A stretch of 64,000 nucleotides of DNA from an uncultured Clostridia bacterium (lineage in GTDB: Bacteria > Bacillota > Clostridia > Oscillospirales > CAG-272): contig CANRMP010000006.1 of the NCBI GenBank assembly GCA_947631765.1, positions 1 through 64,000 of the forward strand, in the 5' to 3' direction. Below the pieces are notes generated by a model. That model did not search any database. It had not been told where the DNA came from and worked only from the letters and a program-made list of their open reading frames with translations. Position numbers and translations under genes: made by a program. Within the stretch, counting starts at the first letter, position 1. Every line of letters begins with the position of its first letter. This document shows positions 45,604-54,072 of this stretch, in pieces.

Positions 45604-48600
45604 TTATTTCCAGCTTGATTTAGTTGTCAGGATGAGGCGGTCAATGACAAGACCGTCCTCGCGTCCCATGAGGGTAATTGTATGTTCACCCGACTGTGAG
45701 ACGGTGAAGGTACCGATTTTCTTCCACACGAAGCCTGCGGTATCCTTAAAGTCGTTAGTTGTTTGAGCATTTTTGCCATCCATTAAGACGATTATTGAGT
45801 CATCCGAGTCGCTCTGGCACTTAACCAAGGCGAAGAGGTTATAGGTACCTGCCGGAAGGTCGACCTTATAGTTAAGCTTAGCCGTTTTGCCGGTATTCGG
45901 ATCGGTGCTTGTATACTGGCTGTTTCCGTTAGGTCCGAAGAAGAGCGCGGAGCCGTAGATACCGCCGGTTTCCATCCAATGGAGCTTTTTATCGTCGGCA
46001 CTGGCGGTATTTGAGGCAAATTCGGTATTATTCAGCGCGGATTCCGCTTCGATAATCACGTCGCCGTTTTCGTCTGGTGCAAATGCAGAAGCTCCGCCGA
46101 CCTCAACATCATTATACTTGCGAATTTCAATTGCCGACACAATCCAGCTGCCGTCAAACGACAGGGTGACTGTACCGTCTGTTGATTCAATGATAAAGCA
46201 ATACTCGGCGGTATTGCCCGCGGCGACGTTAATTCCGGTTATGACGGAGGTACCGTTTGCAAGAACGTTCATATTGACAGCCGAAATTCCGCTTGCCAAG
46301 CGGTCGCCGACAGCGATTGTAAATATATACTTACCTGCGCCGGAGAGCACAAGACGAAGCTCTGCAGGATTATCCGAATAGATAAAGCCCTGATCTCTGT
46401 CGGAGGTACCGCTTGCCGACCTCCTTTCGGCTTTGAGCGAATCGAAGCCGGAGAGCCAGCCGTATCGTTTTGTTCTGATCGATTCGGTAAGGTTATCGAC
46501 ACCGAAGTATCCGCTGTGTGCTTTGTCGACGTCCGAGGTCAAATCGAAATTCAGATCGTCGGAAGCCGGCTCATACTTAAGCCCTTCAAAGGAGAGCTCG
46601 GGCGGGCAAGGCAGAATTTGATCTTCAATATCGGTGACGGTCTGATAGGTTTCGGGCGCACCCAGACGGGAGGAGAGAGCGCCGAGACTCTCGTGGAGAA
46701 GCTCGATTTTGTCAAACGCCATTCCGGCGTCCGCCTGATATATTCTAAGCTCATGCCAGCCGACGGTATCGAAGCTTACCGAAAAGCTCAGCTTTTCGAT
46801 GTTATATCTCACACCGTAGCTCCATTTGCTTGAGCCGCCGGTATCCACGGTGGTATTTCCGCGTAAGGTAGCAACGTTGCCGCCGTCCACCGAGTAGACT
46901 ATCCGACAGGTTTTGGCACTTCTGCCGTTTGTCGTCCCCTCATTCAGAGTGGGAATACGGAATAGAGTGCCGTTATATTTGCCGGTTGTGGTTACATAAA
47001 TTTGGTAGACAAGATAAGCGGATTTTTCGGAATAATCCGAGCCGATATTTGTTGACGAAGCGGAGGTGTCGGGGAAAACCTTCATGGAGCCGCCCGAAAC
47101 GCCGAGATTTGGCATGAGCTTCCATTCGCAGTCGCCGACCGCAACACTGTCGGTGTAGTGCTCCGCTTCAATGGAGATAATGCCGTTTTCCTCAAAGTAG
47201 CCTTTGAACCTTGTCTCGTTTGAGGGGTCTACCAGCGCGGAAATAAGCACGGGAATTTTTGTCGTATGCCCGTAGTTGTCGGAGATTATTATATCGCCCG
47301 AATAGGTGCCGGACAGCTTTTCTTTGTTAACTCCGACCCATATTCTTGTTTCCACATTGACGCTTCCGAGATATTCAACCTTTCCGCCCGATGCACTGCC
47401 GGTCAAAAGCTTGCCGTTTTGATCGTAGAACGAGAGCGCCTCATCGGCGGTCAGCTTGAAATCATAACCGGTATTGCCGAGCGAAAAGATGTCAATAAAG
47501 CGCTTTGAGGTTGTAAAAGAGGTAAAGCGCAGCTCTGCGGGAATGCCGCCGGTCTGCCCTTCGGACGCCGCCTTGACGCCGTCTTCGGCAAGATCAGCCG
47601 AGATATAGGTCACCGAGGGCTTGGAGGCGATAGGGGGAGAGCCGTTTGCTGTGGTATAGGGATTGAGAATCCCTCTCCACTTGCCGTTTTGCAGTGAATT
47701 GTAGGTTTTGATGTCTGCGGCGATTTCGGCAAACGCCTCTTCGGAGAGAGCGGCGTAGGCGTTAATACTTGCAAACCGCCCCTGACTCATGGCAAGCTGA
47801 TTTTTTTGCGCATAAACGTTAAGCTCAAGGGTGAGCCTCAGACAGCGGGTCTTGTAGTAAATCAGTTCATAGAACGAATCTTTCCTGATATCGGGCAGCG
47901 CATCATATATTTTTGCGGCGACCGCCTCAGCCCGCTTTGCGCGGGTTATCATTATTTCCGCCTCATCGCCGAAATTCACCAAGCTGTACTCGACGCCTTC
48001 ATTGTAGCCCTGATAATCGGGCTTGTAGGCAATGGCAACCTGATAATATTCGGTCATGGCGGAGGCAATTTCTTTGGCATCGCTTTCGGAAAGCGCAAAA
48101 TTCGTACGGCAGAAGGACGCAGTGAAGTCTTCAAGATTCTCGGGGCTAAAATCGTCGACAGACCACGCAAGCTTCAAAAAGAAGTCCATGGGTAATTCGG
48201 CGGGCTTAAGATCGCCGACGTTGAGTATCCAAAGGTCGTCCGAACCCGCATTGTACGCCTTGTTCATTTCTTCGTAAATCTGAGAGAGAGGGGTGCTGTC
48301 TATCCACAGATAGCTGCGCGGAACTCCCCTGTAGGAGACGTGATAATAAACGCCAAAGCCCGCATATGTGTTAAGCTCGGAGGCGTTCGGAAGCTGGCGA
48401 ACATATCCGTAGTTGTCGTCGCTGTACTCAATAATGCAGTCCTCGGGAAGCGATATGTCATATTTGTAGTATTCAGCCGCTTCCTTGTATGGACAGTAAC
48501 ATGTGACAAAATGCTCTTCCTTTCCGGTTTCCTCGGACAGGATGCTTTCGTACTTTTCAAGAATTGCAAGCTGCGCTTCTATAGCCTTTTTGACATAAGC

Positions 48601-49755
48601 CGCCTGCTGTTCGTAGGAGGCGTTCGGAACCGCAGAGTGAGCGATTCCCGAGTCGTGTACGCCGCGAAGCCCCAAGGTATAGATATTGTCAAAACGATAG
48701 TTTGCGGCAACGCGGTCTTCCCAATAGGCGTTCATGGCTTCGGCGTTTACCGTGTAATCGTAAGAAGCCTTCCAGTCGTTATTCAGCTTTTTCAGGTGGT
48801 ACTTGCCTTCATTTGCCTCGCACCACGGAACCCATTCGGTTTCGTTGTTGCAAAGCAGCATTTCGCAGTGGCTGGAACCCATAATTATGCCGTAGCTGTC
48901 GGCAAGCTCGGCATTGTAGGCAATGCCGGTATCGGGGTTTATAACCGCGTTGAAGGCGGTGGAGGTAGCGTGCATTGCGGGATAGAGAGTATTCGCCTTG
49001 AGGCGCAGAAGAAGCTCAAACATATGCCCGTAAACCTCGGGACCGGGGGTCCCGAGATTTTCGGTTCGTCTTACGAACCTTGCCGACCATGCCGCAAGGT
49101 TTTCCTCGTCATTGATAAAGATGCCGCGGTATTTCACGTCAGGCGCCTCACTGCCGGACAGCTCGGCAACCGACAGGGTGAGATTTTTATTCTCAATAAT
49201 CGGAACGTCGCCCCACCAATACCAAGGGGAAACGCCGATTTGAGACGAAAGCTCATAGATACCGTATATCGTGCCGCGAGTATCGCTTCCGGCAATTACA
49301 ACAGAGTACTCGGCGGTGTCGGTGAGATTCTTGTAAACGGCTATTTTATAGCCCTCCCACTTGTCCGCTATTTCGGAAACGTCAAGAACTCCGGCGTCGA
49401 TAAGACCGTCTATCATACCGCTTTGACCAATTGTTCCGATAATGATAGAAGTGGACGAAAGCTCTGCCACGTCGACCGAAAGCTCGGGCCTTGTACCCGT
49501 GACCTTTTCAAAATCGGTTTGGAGGTCTCCGGCCGCCCTTTGAGCCTGCGGCTCATCCGAGCTGTTTATGTAGAGCGTGGGTTTTGAGAGGTCAAGCTCC
49601 CCTTCTGCCACCAGAGAGCAGTCCCCCGAAATCGGAATAAGGACCTCCTCCGGCTTTTTTTCGGAACCTTTTTTCGAGCATCCTGCCGTAGCGCAAAGGA
49701 GTGCGGACAATGCAAGAACTGCGGCGATTCCTTTTAAAACTCTTGATTGCTTCAT
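45604..49755 (-). CDS. GH115 xylan alpha-glucuronidase-like lipoprotein
   Basis: A 1383-aa lipoprotein; the signal LALSALLCATAGCSKK ends in a lipobox Cys. GH115 enzymes remove 4-O-methyl-glucuronic acid from xylan. Family stretches are YRGIFINDEENLAAW (near 230), LGLRGVHDSGI and YYHVSYRGVPRSYLW. Beyond about residue 850 come the GH115 C-terminal domain (EAEHYTDSVAVG) and two further beta-sandwich regions. The last is CBM35/CBM6-like (IEAESALNN, DLPAGTYNLFALV). Start at ATG 49755. It would act on the outside surface. Confidence 0.9.
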   Translation of the reverse strand: MKQSRVLKGIAAVLALSALLCATAGCSKKGSEKKPEEVLIPISGDCSLVAEGELDLSKPTLYINSSDEPQAQRAAGDLQTDFEKVTGTRPELSVDVAELSSTSIIIGTIGQSGMIDGLIDAGVLDVSEIADKWEGYKIAVYKNLTDTAEYSVVIAGSDTRGTIYGIYELSSQIGVSPWYWWGDVPIIENKNLTLSVAELSGSEAPDVKYRGIFINDEENLAAWSARFVRRTENLGTPGPEVYGHMFELLLRLKANTLYPAMHATSTAFNAVINPDTGIAYNAELADSYGIIMGSSHCEMLLCNNETEWVPWCEANEGKYHLKKLNNDWKASYDYTVNAEAMNAYWEDRVAANYRFDNIYTLGLRGVHDSGIAHSAVPNASYEQQAAYVKKAIEAQLAILEKYESILSEETGKEEHFVTCYCPYKEAAEYYKYDISLPEDCIIEYSDDNYGYVRQLPNASELNTYAGFGVYYHVSYRGVPRSYLWIDSTPLSQIYEEMNKAYNAGSDDLWILNVGDLKPAELPMDFFLKLAWSVDDFSPENLEDFTASFCRTNFALSESDAKEIASAMTEYYQVAIAYKPDYQGYNEGVEYSLVNFGDEAEIMITRAKRAEAVAAKIYDALPDIRKDSFYELIYYKTRCLRLTLELNVYAQKNQLAMSQGRFASINAYAALSEEAFAEIAADIKTYNSLQNGKWRGILNPYTTANGSPPIASKPSVTYISADLAEDGVKAASEGQTGGIPAELRFTSFTTSKRFIDIFSLGNTGYDFKLTADEALSFYDQNGKLLTGSASGGKVEYLGSVNVETRIWVGVNKEKLSGTYSGDIIISDNYGHTTKIPVLISALVDPSNETRFKGYFEENGIISIEAEHYTDSVAVGDCEWKLMPNLGVSGGSMKVFPDTSASSTNIGSDYSEKSAYLVYQIYVTTTGKYNGTLFRIPTLNEGTTNGRSAKTCRIVYSVDGGNVATLRGNTTVDTGGSSKWSYGVRYNIEKLSFSVSFDTVGWHELRIYQADAGMAFDKIELLHESLGALSSRLGAPETYQTVTDIEDQILPCPPELSFEGLKYEPASDDLNFDLTSDVDKAHSGYFGVDNLTESIRTKRYGWLSGFDSLKAERRSASGTSDRDQGFIYSDNPAELRLVLSGAGKYIFTIAVGDRLASGISAVNMNVLANGTSVITGINVAAGNTAEYCFIIESTDGTVTLSFDGSWIVSAIEIRKYNDVEVGGASAFAPDENGDVIIEAESALNNTEFASNTASADDKKLHWMETGGIYGSALFFGPNGNSQYTSTDPNTGKTAKLNYKVDLPAGTYNLFALVKCQSDSDDSIIVLMDGKNAQTTNDFKDTAGFVWKKIGTFTVSQSGEHTITLMGREDGLVIDRLILTTKSSWK

Positions 49756-49824
49756 TAAATCATTCCTTTCTAAAAAATTGCCTGTCATTCACGTCAATTC
49801 TATTGTAGGATTCTGTTAGTTATA

Positions 49825-50055: not shown

Positions 50056-52890
50056 ATGGCAAAGAAAATAGTTCACCTGATAAACGGTACCCACTGGGAC
50101 CGCGAGTGGCGTCACACTGCCGAGCAGAGCAAGCTCCGCCTTGTGGATCTTGTCGACAACATCATAAACCTGCTGGAGCAGAAGGAAAGCTACAATTATT
50201 TCTGCATTGACGGCGGAACAATCGTTATAGAGGACTATCTGACGATCCGTCCCGAAAACAAAGAGCGCATTGTTAACCTTATCAAGGCGGGGAGAATTAA
50301 AATAGTCAATTGGTACACTCTTCCCGAAACAAACACCGTAGCTCCCGAGGCGCTTATACGCAACCTGCTTCTCGGTCACAAAATGGCAGCGGAGCTTGGC
50401 GGCGGCATGAAATCGGGATACACCGCCACATCCTACGGTCAGCCCTCACAGCTTCCCCAGCTGTATAAGGGCTTCGGCATCGAAACCGCGATTTTCTACC
50501 GCGGAACCAACAAGCATGTGCTCACACCCCTGTTTAATTGGGAGAGCCCGGACGGTTCTACTATAAATACCCTGCGTACCTTTGACGAGGTCACAAGAAC
50601 CAACTGGTTCTTCTATGTGCACGGTCCGGCAGTGCTCGGAAAGGGACTTAAGGACCTTACCTACACATATGACATTACGCAAAAGCCCGTACACATGGCT
50701 GACACAAAGTCGTATGAAAAAGCCTTCACTCTGCTTCACGAGGACTTTGACTACATACACGACAAGGAGGTTCAAAAGCGTTCGCTTGACTATCTGCTTG
50801 CACAGGCTGAGCCTTACGCCATAGGTGAGCATATCCTTGCCCTTAACATGGAGGACAATGACGAGCCGTACAGATACCTGCCCGAGCTTGTCGCCGACAT
50901 GAACAAAATTTATGATGACGTCGAGATAAAGCAGGACACCATGGACGATTATATGGACGCCATCATTACCGCCGCCAAGGATAAGGCGACTCACAAGGGT
51001 GAGCTTCGCTACACCACCATGGAGTACAACAACTTCAACGCCCTGCTCGGAGCAACCCACTCTTCAAGAATCAAAATCAAGCTTTACAACGACGACGTTG
51101 AGAACAACCTTATAAATCTCGGCGAGCCTCTTGCCGCTTTAGCTTCGCTTTACGGCAAGGAATATCCCACGACAAACATTCAAAGAGCATGGCAGCACCT
51201 GTTAAAGAACCACGCCCACGACTCGATTTGCGGAGCGGCAGTCGACAGAGCGCACGAGGATATGATGTACAATTTCTCGCTCGCAAAGACGGTTGCCGAG
51301 GAGGTCACAAACAGGAGCGTTATCGCCCTCTTCTCGAATATCAATACAAGCGCAAGCTTCAAATCGACCGACCATATTCTCACCCTCTTCAATACCCTTC
51401 CCTATGAGCGCGAGGAGGTTGTGGAGCTTGTAATCGACACTCCCAAGGGCAAGGTTCAAGTTACCGACAACGGGCTCCAGGGCATGGCGGACTGCGGAGA
51501 CTTTTATGATATCGTCGACGCAAACGGCAATGTTCTTCCGTCTGTTGAGCTTTCAAGAGACGACATTTCAATAGGCGTTGAGAGAGAGCTTGACACAAAA
51601 TCGATTAAATTCAACGCAAACAGAAAGCGTGTGCTTGTCAAGGTCAAGGTTCCTCAGTGCGGATATACCACAATTGCCATGCGTATGCGTCCTCCGGTTT
51701 TCGCATATCATCCCGAAATCATGGAGAACAGAAAGCTTATCGCACGCGACGGCGGACTTCTTGAAAACGACAACCTCAAGGTAGTTATAAACAGCAACGG
51801 TACACTGACAATCACCGATAAGATTACCGGTCACACCGTTGAAAACGCAATGTACTATACCGACACAGGCGAGGTCGGAAGCGCGCACGCAAGCCAGACT
51901 CCCAAGAGAAACTGCGTTTATACCTCGCTCGGCAGCGCCGCAAAGATCACAATGCTCGAATCAAACGAGCTTCGCGGTGTGTATAAAATAGAGCTTTCAA
52001 TGACCCTTCCCGCCGCCGCAACAATCGACGGCCAGGACAGGACAAGGGAGATAAAGACCCTGCCGATAACCACAATTCTGACGCTTGAAAAGGATGCAAA
52101 ATATCTCAAAGTCAACACCAAGCTTGTAAATGAGATTCGCGACCACAAGCTTTGCGTCAACTTCCCGACGGGAATTGAAAAGGCGGACTTTGCGGATAGC
52201 GAGAGTGCATGGGATGTGGCAAGCCGTACAATCAAATGGAGAGATCATAAGGATAACTTCGAGGGCTTCTTCCCCTTCCAGCCGATGCAGAACTTTGTTG
52301 ACGTTTCGGACGGCAAAACAGGCTTTGCGGTGCTCACAAAGGGACTTCGTGAATACGAAATTCAGGACGACACCCTCCGCACAATGAAGATAACCCTCAT
52401 ACGCACACAGCGCGCCTACATGACCGCAAACAACAACATGACCTATGAAGAGCTTGACAAGTACACAGGTCAGCACTCCTTCGGAACAATGGAATACGAG
52501 TACGCTATTATGCCTCATGCTGGCAGTTGGTTTGACGCGGGCGTTCTCCAGGCGGCTTACGCCCACAAGGTCACAATCAAAGCGGTACAGGGCGTATACA
52601 GCGACACGGGCGTGCTTGCGGATACCGGTTCATTCCTTGAATTTAAGGCAAATGACAAGAGCCTCATGATCTCCGCTCTTAAACAGGCGGAGAGCGGCAA
52701 GGGCGTTACCCTGCGCGTTTGGAATACCACGGGTGTTTCCGAGACGGTAGACGTAAATACCATTCTGCCCGTTACAAGGATCACAAGGACGCGCCTTGAC
52801 GAAAAGGCAATTGAGGAGATCCCCGTAAAGGACGGCAAATTCAGCTTTACTTTGGGCGCTCACAAAATCGAAACCTTTATTCTCGAGTGA
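50056..52890 (+). CDS. GH38-family protein, noncanonical active site
   Basis: A 944-aa protein with the full GH38 alpha-mannosidase layout. The zinc motif GTHWDREW is at residues 11-18, the NHAHDSICG His motif is in the middle and C-terminal beta domains follow. No signal peptide, so cytosolic. The nucleophile segment, usually like GY-x-x-D-S-F-G, reads GYTATSYGQPSQLPQ, with Thr125 where Asp is expected. That Asp is also a zinc ligand in known enzymes. It may be a separate subgroup with another mechanism or substrate, or inactive. AACACGGAGG precedes the ATG. Confidence 0.88.
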   Translation: MAKKIVHLINGTHWDREWRHTAEQSKLRLVDLVDNIINLLEQKESYNYFCIDGGTIVIEDYLTIRPENKERIVNLIKAGRIKIVNWYTLPETNTVAPEALIRNLLLGHKMAAELGGGMKSGYTATSYGQPSQLPQLYKGFGIETAIFYRGTNKHVLTPLFNWESPDGSTINTLRTFDEVTRTNWFFYVHGPAVLGKGLKDLTYTYDITQKPVHMADTKSYEKAFTLLHEDFDYIHDKEVQKRSLDYLLAQAEPYAIGEHILALNMEDNDEPYRYLPELVADMNKIYDDVEIKQDTMDDYMDAIITAAKDKATHKGELRYTTMEYNNFNALLGATHSSRIKIKLYNDDVENNLINLGEPLAALASLYGKEYPTTNIQRAWQHLLKNHAHDSICGAAVDRAHEDMMYNFSLAKTVAEEVTNRSVIALFSNINTSASFKSTDHILTLFNTLPYEREEVVELVIDTPKGKVQVTDNGLQGMADCGDFYDIVDANGNVLPSVELSRDDISIGVERELDTKSIKFNANRKRVLVKVKVPQCGYTTIAMRMRPPVFAYHPEIMENRKLIARDGGLLENDNLKVVINSNGTLTITDKITGHTVENAMYYTDTGEVGSAHASQTPKRNCVYTSLGSAAKITMLESNELRGVYKIELSMTLPAAATIDGQDRTREIKTLPITTILTLEKDAKYLKVNTKLVNEIRDHKLCVNFPTGIEKADFADSESAWDVASRTIKWRDHKDNFEGFFPFQPMQNFVDVSDGKTGFAVLTKGLREYEIQDDTLRTMKITLIRTQRAYMTANNNMTYEELDKYTGQHSFGTMEYEYAIMPHAGSWFDAGVLQAAYAHKVTIKAVQGVYSDTGVLADTGSFLEFKANDKSLMISALKQAESGKGVTLRVWNTTGVSETVDVNTILPVTRITRTRLDEKAIEEIPVKDGKFSFTLGAHKIETFILE

Positions 52891-53079: not shown

Positions 53080-54072
53080 ATGTCAAAGATAATAATAAAA
53101 GATCTGGGAGAATTTGACAAAGACTGCGGTCTTGTTGAAATTGACAAGTGCAGCGACGGATTTAACGCTGTCGGTAAGGATGGAGTTGTAAAAATTTACG
53201 CTACGGGTGACCGCAAGGTGGAGCTGCTTTGCTACGCAGACCATACAGTAGCTTACGTTCTCTCGGCGATAGGACACCCCGCCTATTATCCGATACATCC
53301 GGTAAGCCTCAAAAAGCCGATAAAAGCGGTGCTTATGGACCTTGACGGCACAAGCGTCAGAAGCGAGGAATTTTGGATATGGATAATCGAAAAGTCAATT
53401 GCCTCGCTGCTGGGGGATGAAAGCTTCCGACTTGAAGAGGCAGACCTGCCTCACGTTTCGGGACATTCTGTATCCGAGCATCTGCAATATTGCATAAACA
53501 AATATTGCCCCGGCGCTCCTCTTGAAAAAGCGCGCGACTTTTACTTTATGCACACGCACAGAGAAATGAACGAGATAATGGAGGGCAGAGGCAAGGCGGG
53601 CGCCTTCACTCCCTCTCCCGGACTCAAACCGTTTCTCCTTCGCCTCAAAGAGCTCGGAATAAAAATCGGACTTGTCACAAGCGGACTTTACGAAAAGGCT
53701 TATCCCGAAATACTCTCCGCCTTCAACACTCTCGACATGGGCGACCCAAAAGCGTTTTACGACTGTATCATTTCCGCGGGCTTTCCCCTTCGAAAGGGCG
53801 AGGTGGGCACTCTCGGCGAGCTTTCGCCCAAGCCTCACCCCTGGCTTTACGCCGAGACCTGCTCGGTGGGGCTCGGAATACCCTTTGAAATGAGAGACCA
53901 CGTTATAGGGATTGAGGACAGCGGCGCCGGCGTTTGCTCCGTGCGCATTGCCGGCTACAATACCATAGGTTATGACGGAGGAAACATTATTTCCTCGGGA
54001 ACCAAGGCTATGTGCGGTAAATATATGTACAGCTTTGAAGAAATCCTTCGTTACATTGAGGAAAATATTTGA
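53080..54072 (+). CDS. HAD-superfamily phosphatase with extra N-domain
   Basis: A 330-aa protein. The HAD motif I is MDLDGTSVRS near residue 87; motif II is LVTSGLYEKA; the later Lys/Asp motifs are in LSPKPHPWLYAE and GIEDSGAGV. The first 80 residues form an extra domain (DLGEFDKDCGLVEIDKCSDG) that I do not recognise. The layout resembles beta-phosphoglucomutase and sugar-phosphatase types. It follows GH38 with its own promoter, so a sugar phosphate is a reasonable but unproven substrate. Confidence 0.85.
   Translation: MSKIIIKDLGEFDKDCGLVEIDKCSDGFNAVGKDGVVKIYATGDRKVELLCYADHTVAYVLSAIGHPAYYPIHPVSLKKPIKAVLMDLDGTSVRSEEFWIWIIEKSIASLLGDESFRLEEADLPHVSGHSVSEHLQYCINKYCPGAPLEKARDFYFMHTHREMNEIMEGRGKAGAFTPSPGLKPFLLRLKELGIKIGLVTSGLYEKAYPEILSAFNTLDMGDPKAFYDCIISAGFPLRKGEVGTLGELSPKPHPWLYAETCSVGLGIPFEMRDHVIGIEDSGAGVCSVRIAGYNTIGYDGGNIISSGTKAMCGKYMYSFEEILRYIEENI

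Follow-up and report, generated by a model that had tools for sequence, protein, structure and literature searches.

A GH38-like gene with threonine at the nucleophile site

The stretch of Clostridia DNA analyzed here, 64,000 nucleotides long and called the window below, carries an intact open reading frame at positions 50056-52890 of the forward strand, followed directly downstream by a gene for a protein of the HAD superfamily. The 944-amino-acid product of the first gene was identified as GH38-like through Pfam, homologues, and fold. Its matches to PF01074, PF09261, PF07748, and PF17677 (the GH38 N, middle, C, and C2 domains) were all above the cutoff, and no signal peptide was apparent at the N terminus. 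An AlphaFold model of this GH38 variant had a mean pLDDT of 82, with part of an insert at low confidence, and the predicted fold matched the solved bacterial GH38 mannosidases 5kbp and 2wyh best (Foldseek; TM about 0.82-0.88).

In SpGH38, the zinc ligands are H13, D15, D125, and H351, with D125 also acting as the nucleophile; D232 is the acid/base, and Y192 is hydrogen bonded to D125 (PMC2815779). The -1 subsite of that enzyme contains W18, R149, D352, and Y574, of which Y574 contacts the sugar O4, and the O2 equivalent is coordinated by zinc in GH38 (PMC2815779). At these key sites the window protein has H13, D15, T125, H388, D267, W18, R149, and D389. Positions 50413-50451 encode residues 120-132 (SGYTATSYGQPSQ), and the codon ACA at 50428-50430 (forward strand) specifies Thr125 where other GH38 proteins have the Asp that serves as nucleophile and zinc ligand. 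When the protein was aligned to 5kbp/3lvt and 2wyh, GYTATSYG lined up with GYFPDTFG and T125 fell on the Asp. A preliminary description of this DNA had claimed that Thr (ACA) replaces the catalytic Asp, and the codon, the alignments to enzymes of solved structure, and the SpGH38 numbering all confirmed it. The motifs that it had called intact, HWDREW and NHAHDSICG, are indeed so. The first (H13-W-D15-R-E-W18-R19; 50092-50112, forward strand) keeps zinc ligands H13 and D15 and the stacking residue W18, with R19 where ordinary bacterial GH38 proteins have Tyr. The zinc ligand H388 (51217-51219, forward strand; H351 of SpGH38) is in place too, followed by D389 (D352 of SpGH38). Also kept is D267 (50854-50856, forward strand), the counterpart of the SpGH38 general acid/base D232.

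A genome scan recovered 32 loci whose products are 54-93% identical to the window protein (from Clostridia, Bacilli, Planctomycetes, and one Actinobacteria MAG) and three further loci at 28-31% identity. Thr occupies site 125 in all 32 close homologues, whose motif is YT[AP]T[SAG]YGQ; the distant three read YTPTSYGQ or MTNTSWGQ. Between the window protein and its nearest homologue (93% identity), dN/dS was about 0.03, a rough value with dS near 1.4. The GH38 variant is thus a maintained protein under strong purifying selection, as the preliminary description had supposed in calling it probably not decaying. Decay and a sequencing or base-call error are both ruled out by the Thr in 32 homologues and the low dN/dS.

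The same genome holds four other GH38-type genes (G000:C2:179848, C1:119388, C9:54397, and C3:62060). In three of these paralogues the nucleophile motif still contains [PT]D; the remaining one, L040, has diverged strongly and reads LTADINGYSW.

A wider branch without the nucleophile

We ran a profile search over 291 genomes of the same class and over a second sample, 199 genomes from a second phylum. In the class genomes, a wider branch scored 630-765 bits, which lies between the Thr clade at about 1600 and ordinary GH38 proteins at no more than about 450 for each matched stretch. The wider branch shows the motifs YTPSSWGQ, YTPASWGQ, YSPFGWGQ, YNVFSFGQ, YSIFSFGQ, and YESFGWGQ. Site 125 is Asp in none of the 48 aligned branch members, which have T, S, F, or A, compared with 19 of 19 ordinary bacterial GH38 proteins. 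In a quick tree search with no bootstrap, the 48 members were monophyletic with an SH-aLRT of 98, and of 99 on an alignment stripped of the trait columns and of four outgroup rows. The second-phylum sample, in which one sequence (L147) is missing its start, gave the same picture: branch members again lacked Asp125 and carried R181, and ordinary members had the Asp. Thus, an alignment of GH38 members, the check that the preliminary description had called for, does show Thr at 125 defining a well-supported clade; as a marker, however, Thr is too narrow, since the larger branch that includes this clade has Thr, Ser, Phe, or Ala at the site. This variety means that side-chain chemistry is not required at the site. 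We found no paper on a GH38 branch lacking the nucleophile in the open-access literature.

Comparing residue classes over the 944 columns, we observed that one acidic position was lost in the branch (site 125), none was gained, and basic residues arose at three positions (R19, R174, and R181). R174 (50575-50577, forward strand) is R/K in 47 of 48 branch members and in 1 of 19 ordinary GH38 proteins; R181 (50596-50598, forward strand) is present in 48 of 48 and 0 of 19, respectively. L073 is an exception to the gained basic residues, as are two second-phylum sequences, L146 (R19 to Ser) and L159 (R174 to Thr), which makes R181 the firmest marker. L154, an ordinary member, combines the Asp with a nearby Arg. 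Both R181 and N183 fall in an insert that is specific to the branch and about 55 residues long (about residues 178-235; 50587-50760, forward strand). This insert replaces the loop bearing SpGH38 Y192, and Y192 is lost. Alignment to SpGH38 would put all three Arg residues near the active site. Where SpGH38 has Y574, the Thr clade has His and most other branch members have Trp; we rejected this change as a branch marker because Trp is present in some ordinary members too. Since Y574 contacts O4 and is replaced here, the sugar may not be mannose.

Set against SpGH38 (2wyh) and the E. faecalis GH38 (5kbp), the GH38 variant shares the four domains, the fold, the equivalents of H13, D15, and H351, W18, the acid/base, R149, and the equivalent of D352. 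It differs from them in having Thr for D125, in the loss of Y192 and the change of Y574, in the gained R19, R174, and R181, in the insert, and in its HAD partner.

We next weigh what could stand in for the lost Asp. The preliminary description had offered as its first option a retaining glycosidase that uses another residue as nucleophile, and conservation of Thr at the site in the core clade would agree with this. However, Phe, Ala, and Ser at 125 within the same branch make Thr an unlikely replacement nucleophile, and no newly conserved acid or Cys was found in the branch over the whole protein. Another acid replacing the Asp was rejected on the same count, nor did the alignment reveal an alternative Asp at the nucleophile position. 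We therefore regard a different nucleophile residue as very improbable. Its suggestion of another reaction fared better, this being the likely reason for the change.

H13, D15, H388, and D267 are invariant in the branch, and the sugar-stacking aromatic is invariant or nearly so across phyla. This bears on whether the protein is a pseudoenzyme, that is, a non-catalytic sugar-binding or regulatory protein. Such a protein could well have lost a residue essential to retaining catalysis, but its acid/base and metal site would be expected to be relaxed as well; their retention across phyla and the dN/dS of about 0.03 make this explanation an improbable one.

A 1,2-anhydro sugar route has been proposed for GH99. 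A retaining hydrolase using neighboring-group participation could follow a similar course, with the zinc-bound O2 of the alpha-mannoside, trans to the leaving group, forming a 1,2-anhydro sugar that is then opened by water. A nucleophile residue would be unnecessary, the O2 equivalent is bound by zinc in GH38 (PMC2815779), and the branch retains the remaining zinc ligands. However, we found no newly conserved residue that could act as general base for O2-H, and the route leaves the Arg residues and the HAD partner unexplained. We consider it a poor candidate, about as improbable as a pseudoenzyme.

The HAD partner and neighboring genes

Throughout the branch, the gene for the HAD superfamily protein (subfamily IA, C1 cap; 330 amino acids; 53080-54072, forward strand) is tightly linked to that of the GH38 variant. 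We found it in 23 loci in addition to the window. In 22 core loci its gene lies directly downstream of the GH38 variant on the same strand, with a gap of -4 to 189 bp, and the mean column identity of the protein over 22 loci is 72%. It also lies beside Phe- and Ser-type GH38 variants, and among the neighbors of the GH38 variant in the window it is the only one shared with the core and other branch loci. No adjacent HAD gene was visible in nine core genomes, six of which have it elsewhere. The genomes of L030, L031, and L035 do not have it; thus, the coupling is not obligatory.

Among the 291 class genomes, the GH38 variant occurs in 13 and the HAD in 12; 11 have both, 2 the variant only, and 1 the HAD only (Fisher P 4e-17, shared ancestry ignored). 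The corresponding counts in the 199 second-phylum genomes were 5, 3, and 3 with both (P 8e-6, again ignoring shared ancestry). Pooling the 490 genomes, 14 of 15 with the HAD also have the GH38 variant. The GH38 variant and the HAD diverge in a correlated way (r = 0.80, with none of 5000 permutations as high), for which shared inheritance alone would suffice.

By sequence, the HAD partner is nearest to the beta-phosphoglucomutase/hexitol-phosphatase group, and its nearest PDB sequence matches are beta-phosphoglucomutases, but its scores are far below all curated cutoffs. It shares with that group the subfamily IA motifs DxDGT, TSG, K, and ED and the C1 cap, and it differs in having an extra N-terminal domain of about 80 amino acids. 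H20 and R49, which we take to be the mutase residues of beta-phosphoglucomutase, align with Trp99 and Val131 and so are not kept. The missing mutase residues and the low scores both argue against a true beta-phosphoglucomutase. The protein is probably a sugar-phosphate phosphatase or mutase and, judging from its residues, may be a plain phosphatase.

Neighbors of the GH38 variant in the core loci include a GxGYxYP protein, a LacI regulator, a sugar ABC importer, a ROK kinase, a hexokinase, and a phosphomannose isomerase. The importers are of the ABC type, not PTS. A mannose-6-phosphate isomerase gene adjoins the HAD gene in L098, L135, and L140. Near Phe-type GH38 variants we observed a GH94 phosphorylase gene (L088:5281-7728, with the HAD gene between, and a homologue at L097:7608-9878).

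A candidate reaction for the branch

For an inverting phosphorylase one catalytic residue is enough, because phosphate itself acts as nucleophile and base (PMC8950772). In the branch, the general acid is kept at the sequence level and there is no enzyme nucleophile or base. Retention of the acid and the metal site, loss of the nucleophile, gain of Arg, lack of a new acid, and a partner from a class of enzymes acting on phosphoryl groups together fit what an inverting phosphorylase needs. We tentatively propose, a little short of an even chance in our judgment, that the window protein is a zinc-dependent inverting glycoside phosphorylase on a GH38 scaffold and that the HAD processes its sugar phosphate. 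With slightly more reserve, we extend this to the whole GH38-derived branch in several phyla, which might consist of zinc-dependent inverting phosphorylases acting on alpha-mannosides or sugars related to them, each served by a member of a new HAD subfamily devoted to the beta-sugar 1-phosphate.

Under this proposal, the covalent (retaining) mechanism would have been abandoned in an enzyme that still works. As in GH38, an alpha-mannoside-like sugar would be held at O2/O3 by zinc, and the leaving group would receive its proton from D267. The place of the lost Asp would be taken by a nucleophile from outside the protein. This would most probably be inorganic phosphate, less likely water, and the phosphate could be bound by R19, R174, and R181, going by their aligned positions. 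Attack on C1 would yield an inverted (beta) sugar 1-phosphate, which the co-inherited HAD would convert, and the products would enter glycolysis via mannose-6-phosphate isomerase and sugar kinases.

Among the markers listed for phosphorylases is the lack of a signal peptide (PMC8950772). We count it for the phosphorylase reading together with the HAD co-occurrence, the isomerase, the kinases, the GH94 gene, the ABC importer, and the LacI regulator. Several points count against it: the nearby kinases would equally suit a hydrolase releasing free mannose; if the HAD were a plain phosphatase, the energy of phosphorolysis would be wasted; the HAD is missing from the genomes of L030, L031, and L035; and the replacement of Y574 makes mannose less certain as the sugar. 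If the reading is right, the branch would resemble the inverting phosphorylases of GH65, GH94, GH112, GH130, GH149, GH161, and GT108 in its single catalytic acid, its cytosolic location, and its linkage to sugar-phosphate enzymes and importers. GH38 is unmentioned in a 2022 phosphorylase review (PMC8950772), and we found no report of a GH38 phosphorylase in the open-access literature.

The nearest named family by sequence is the mannosylglycerate hydrolase MngB (NCBIfam PRK09819), which the GH38 variant matched in part, at 426.7 bits, below the equivalog cutoff of 1138. MngB, the E. coli relative, acts on a phosphorylated substrate. This would speak for a hydrolase without an enzyme nucleophile that acts on an anionic manno-configured glycoside (phosphorylated, sulfated, or uronic), in which the Arg residues would bind the charge, zinc-activated water would attack C1 with inversion, and the HAD would remove phosphate. 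The same gained Arg residues and HAD linkage would be accounted for. However, the core loci have ABC importers rather than PTS, an anionic substrate does not by itself explain the loss of the nucleophile, and inverting hydrolases need a base, for which no newly conserved carboxylate is present. We judge this charged-substrate hydrolase unlikely, and it, the zinc-O2 epoxide route, and a binding protein are all less well supported than a phosphorylase.

The branch proteins pass as GH38 alpha-mannosidases by sequence, yet the GH38 mechanism is unusable for them. Should they prove to be phosphorylases, GH38 would gain its first, and gut and environmental bacteria would have a way to split alpha-mannosides by phosphorolysis. 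To our knowledge, no zinc-dependent glycoside phosphorylase has been described, and the branch would, if the proposal is true, be the first. Even if they are not phosphorylases, they are a clean natural experiment, a retaining glycosidase minus its nucleophile under strong selection. The branch also offers simple sequence markers (no Asp at 125, and R181) and a testable partner in the HAD.

Other genes near branch members were observed as well. Short, cytosolic-looking GxGYxYP (PF14323) proteins recur near the Thr clade, for example at L005:7359-8846 and L022:12858-14444. GxGYxYP is a putative glycosidase family of alpha-mannan loci for which activity had not been found as of PMC4071793, and it and the Thr clade, two orphan families, may belong to a shared pathway. 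Upstream of the GH38 variant in the window, and transcribed divergently from it, is a gene for a 1394-amino-acid GH115-like protein with a lipoprotein-type signal (45604-49788, reverse strand). The nearest relative, L001, does not have this gene; its upstream protein is 1447 amino acids long with no Pfam match. Finally, two URO-D genes (uroporphyrinogen decarboxylase/corrinoid methyltransferase type) flank the Phe-type member in L091 (6460-7503 and 11521-12600) and are perhaps there for a methylated sugar.
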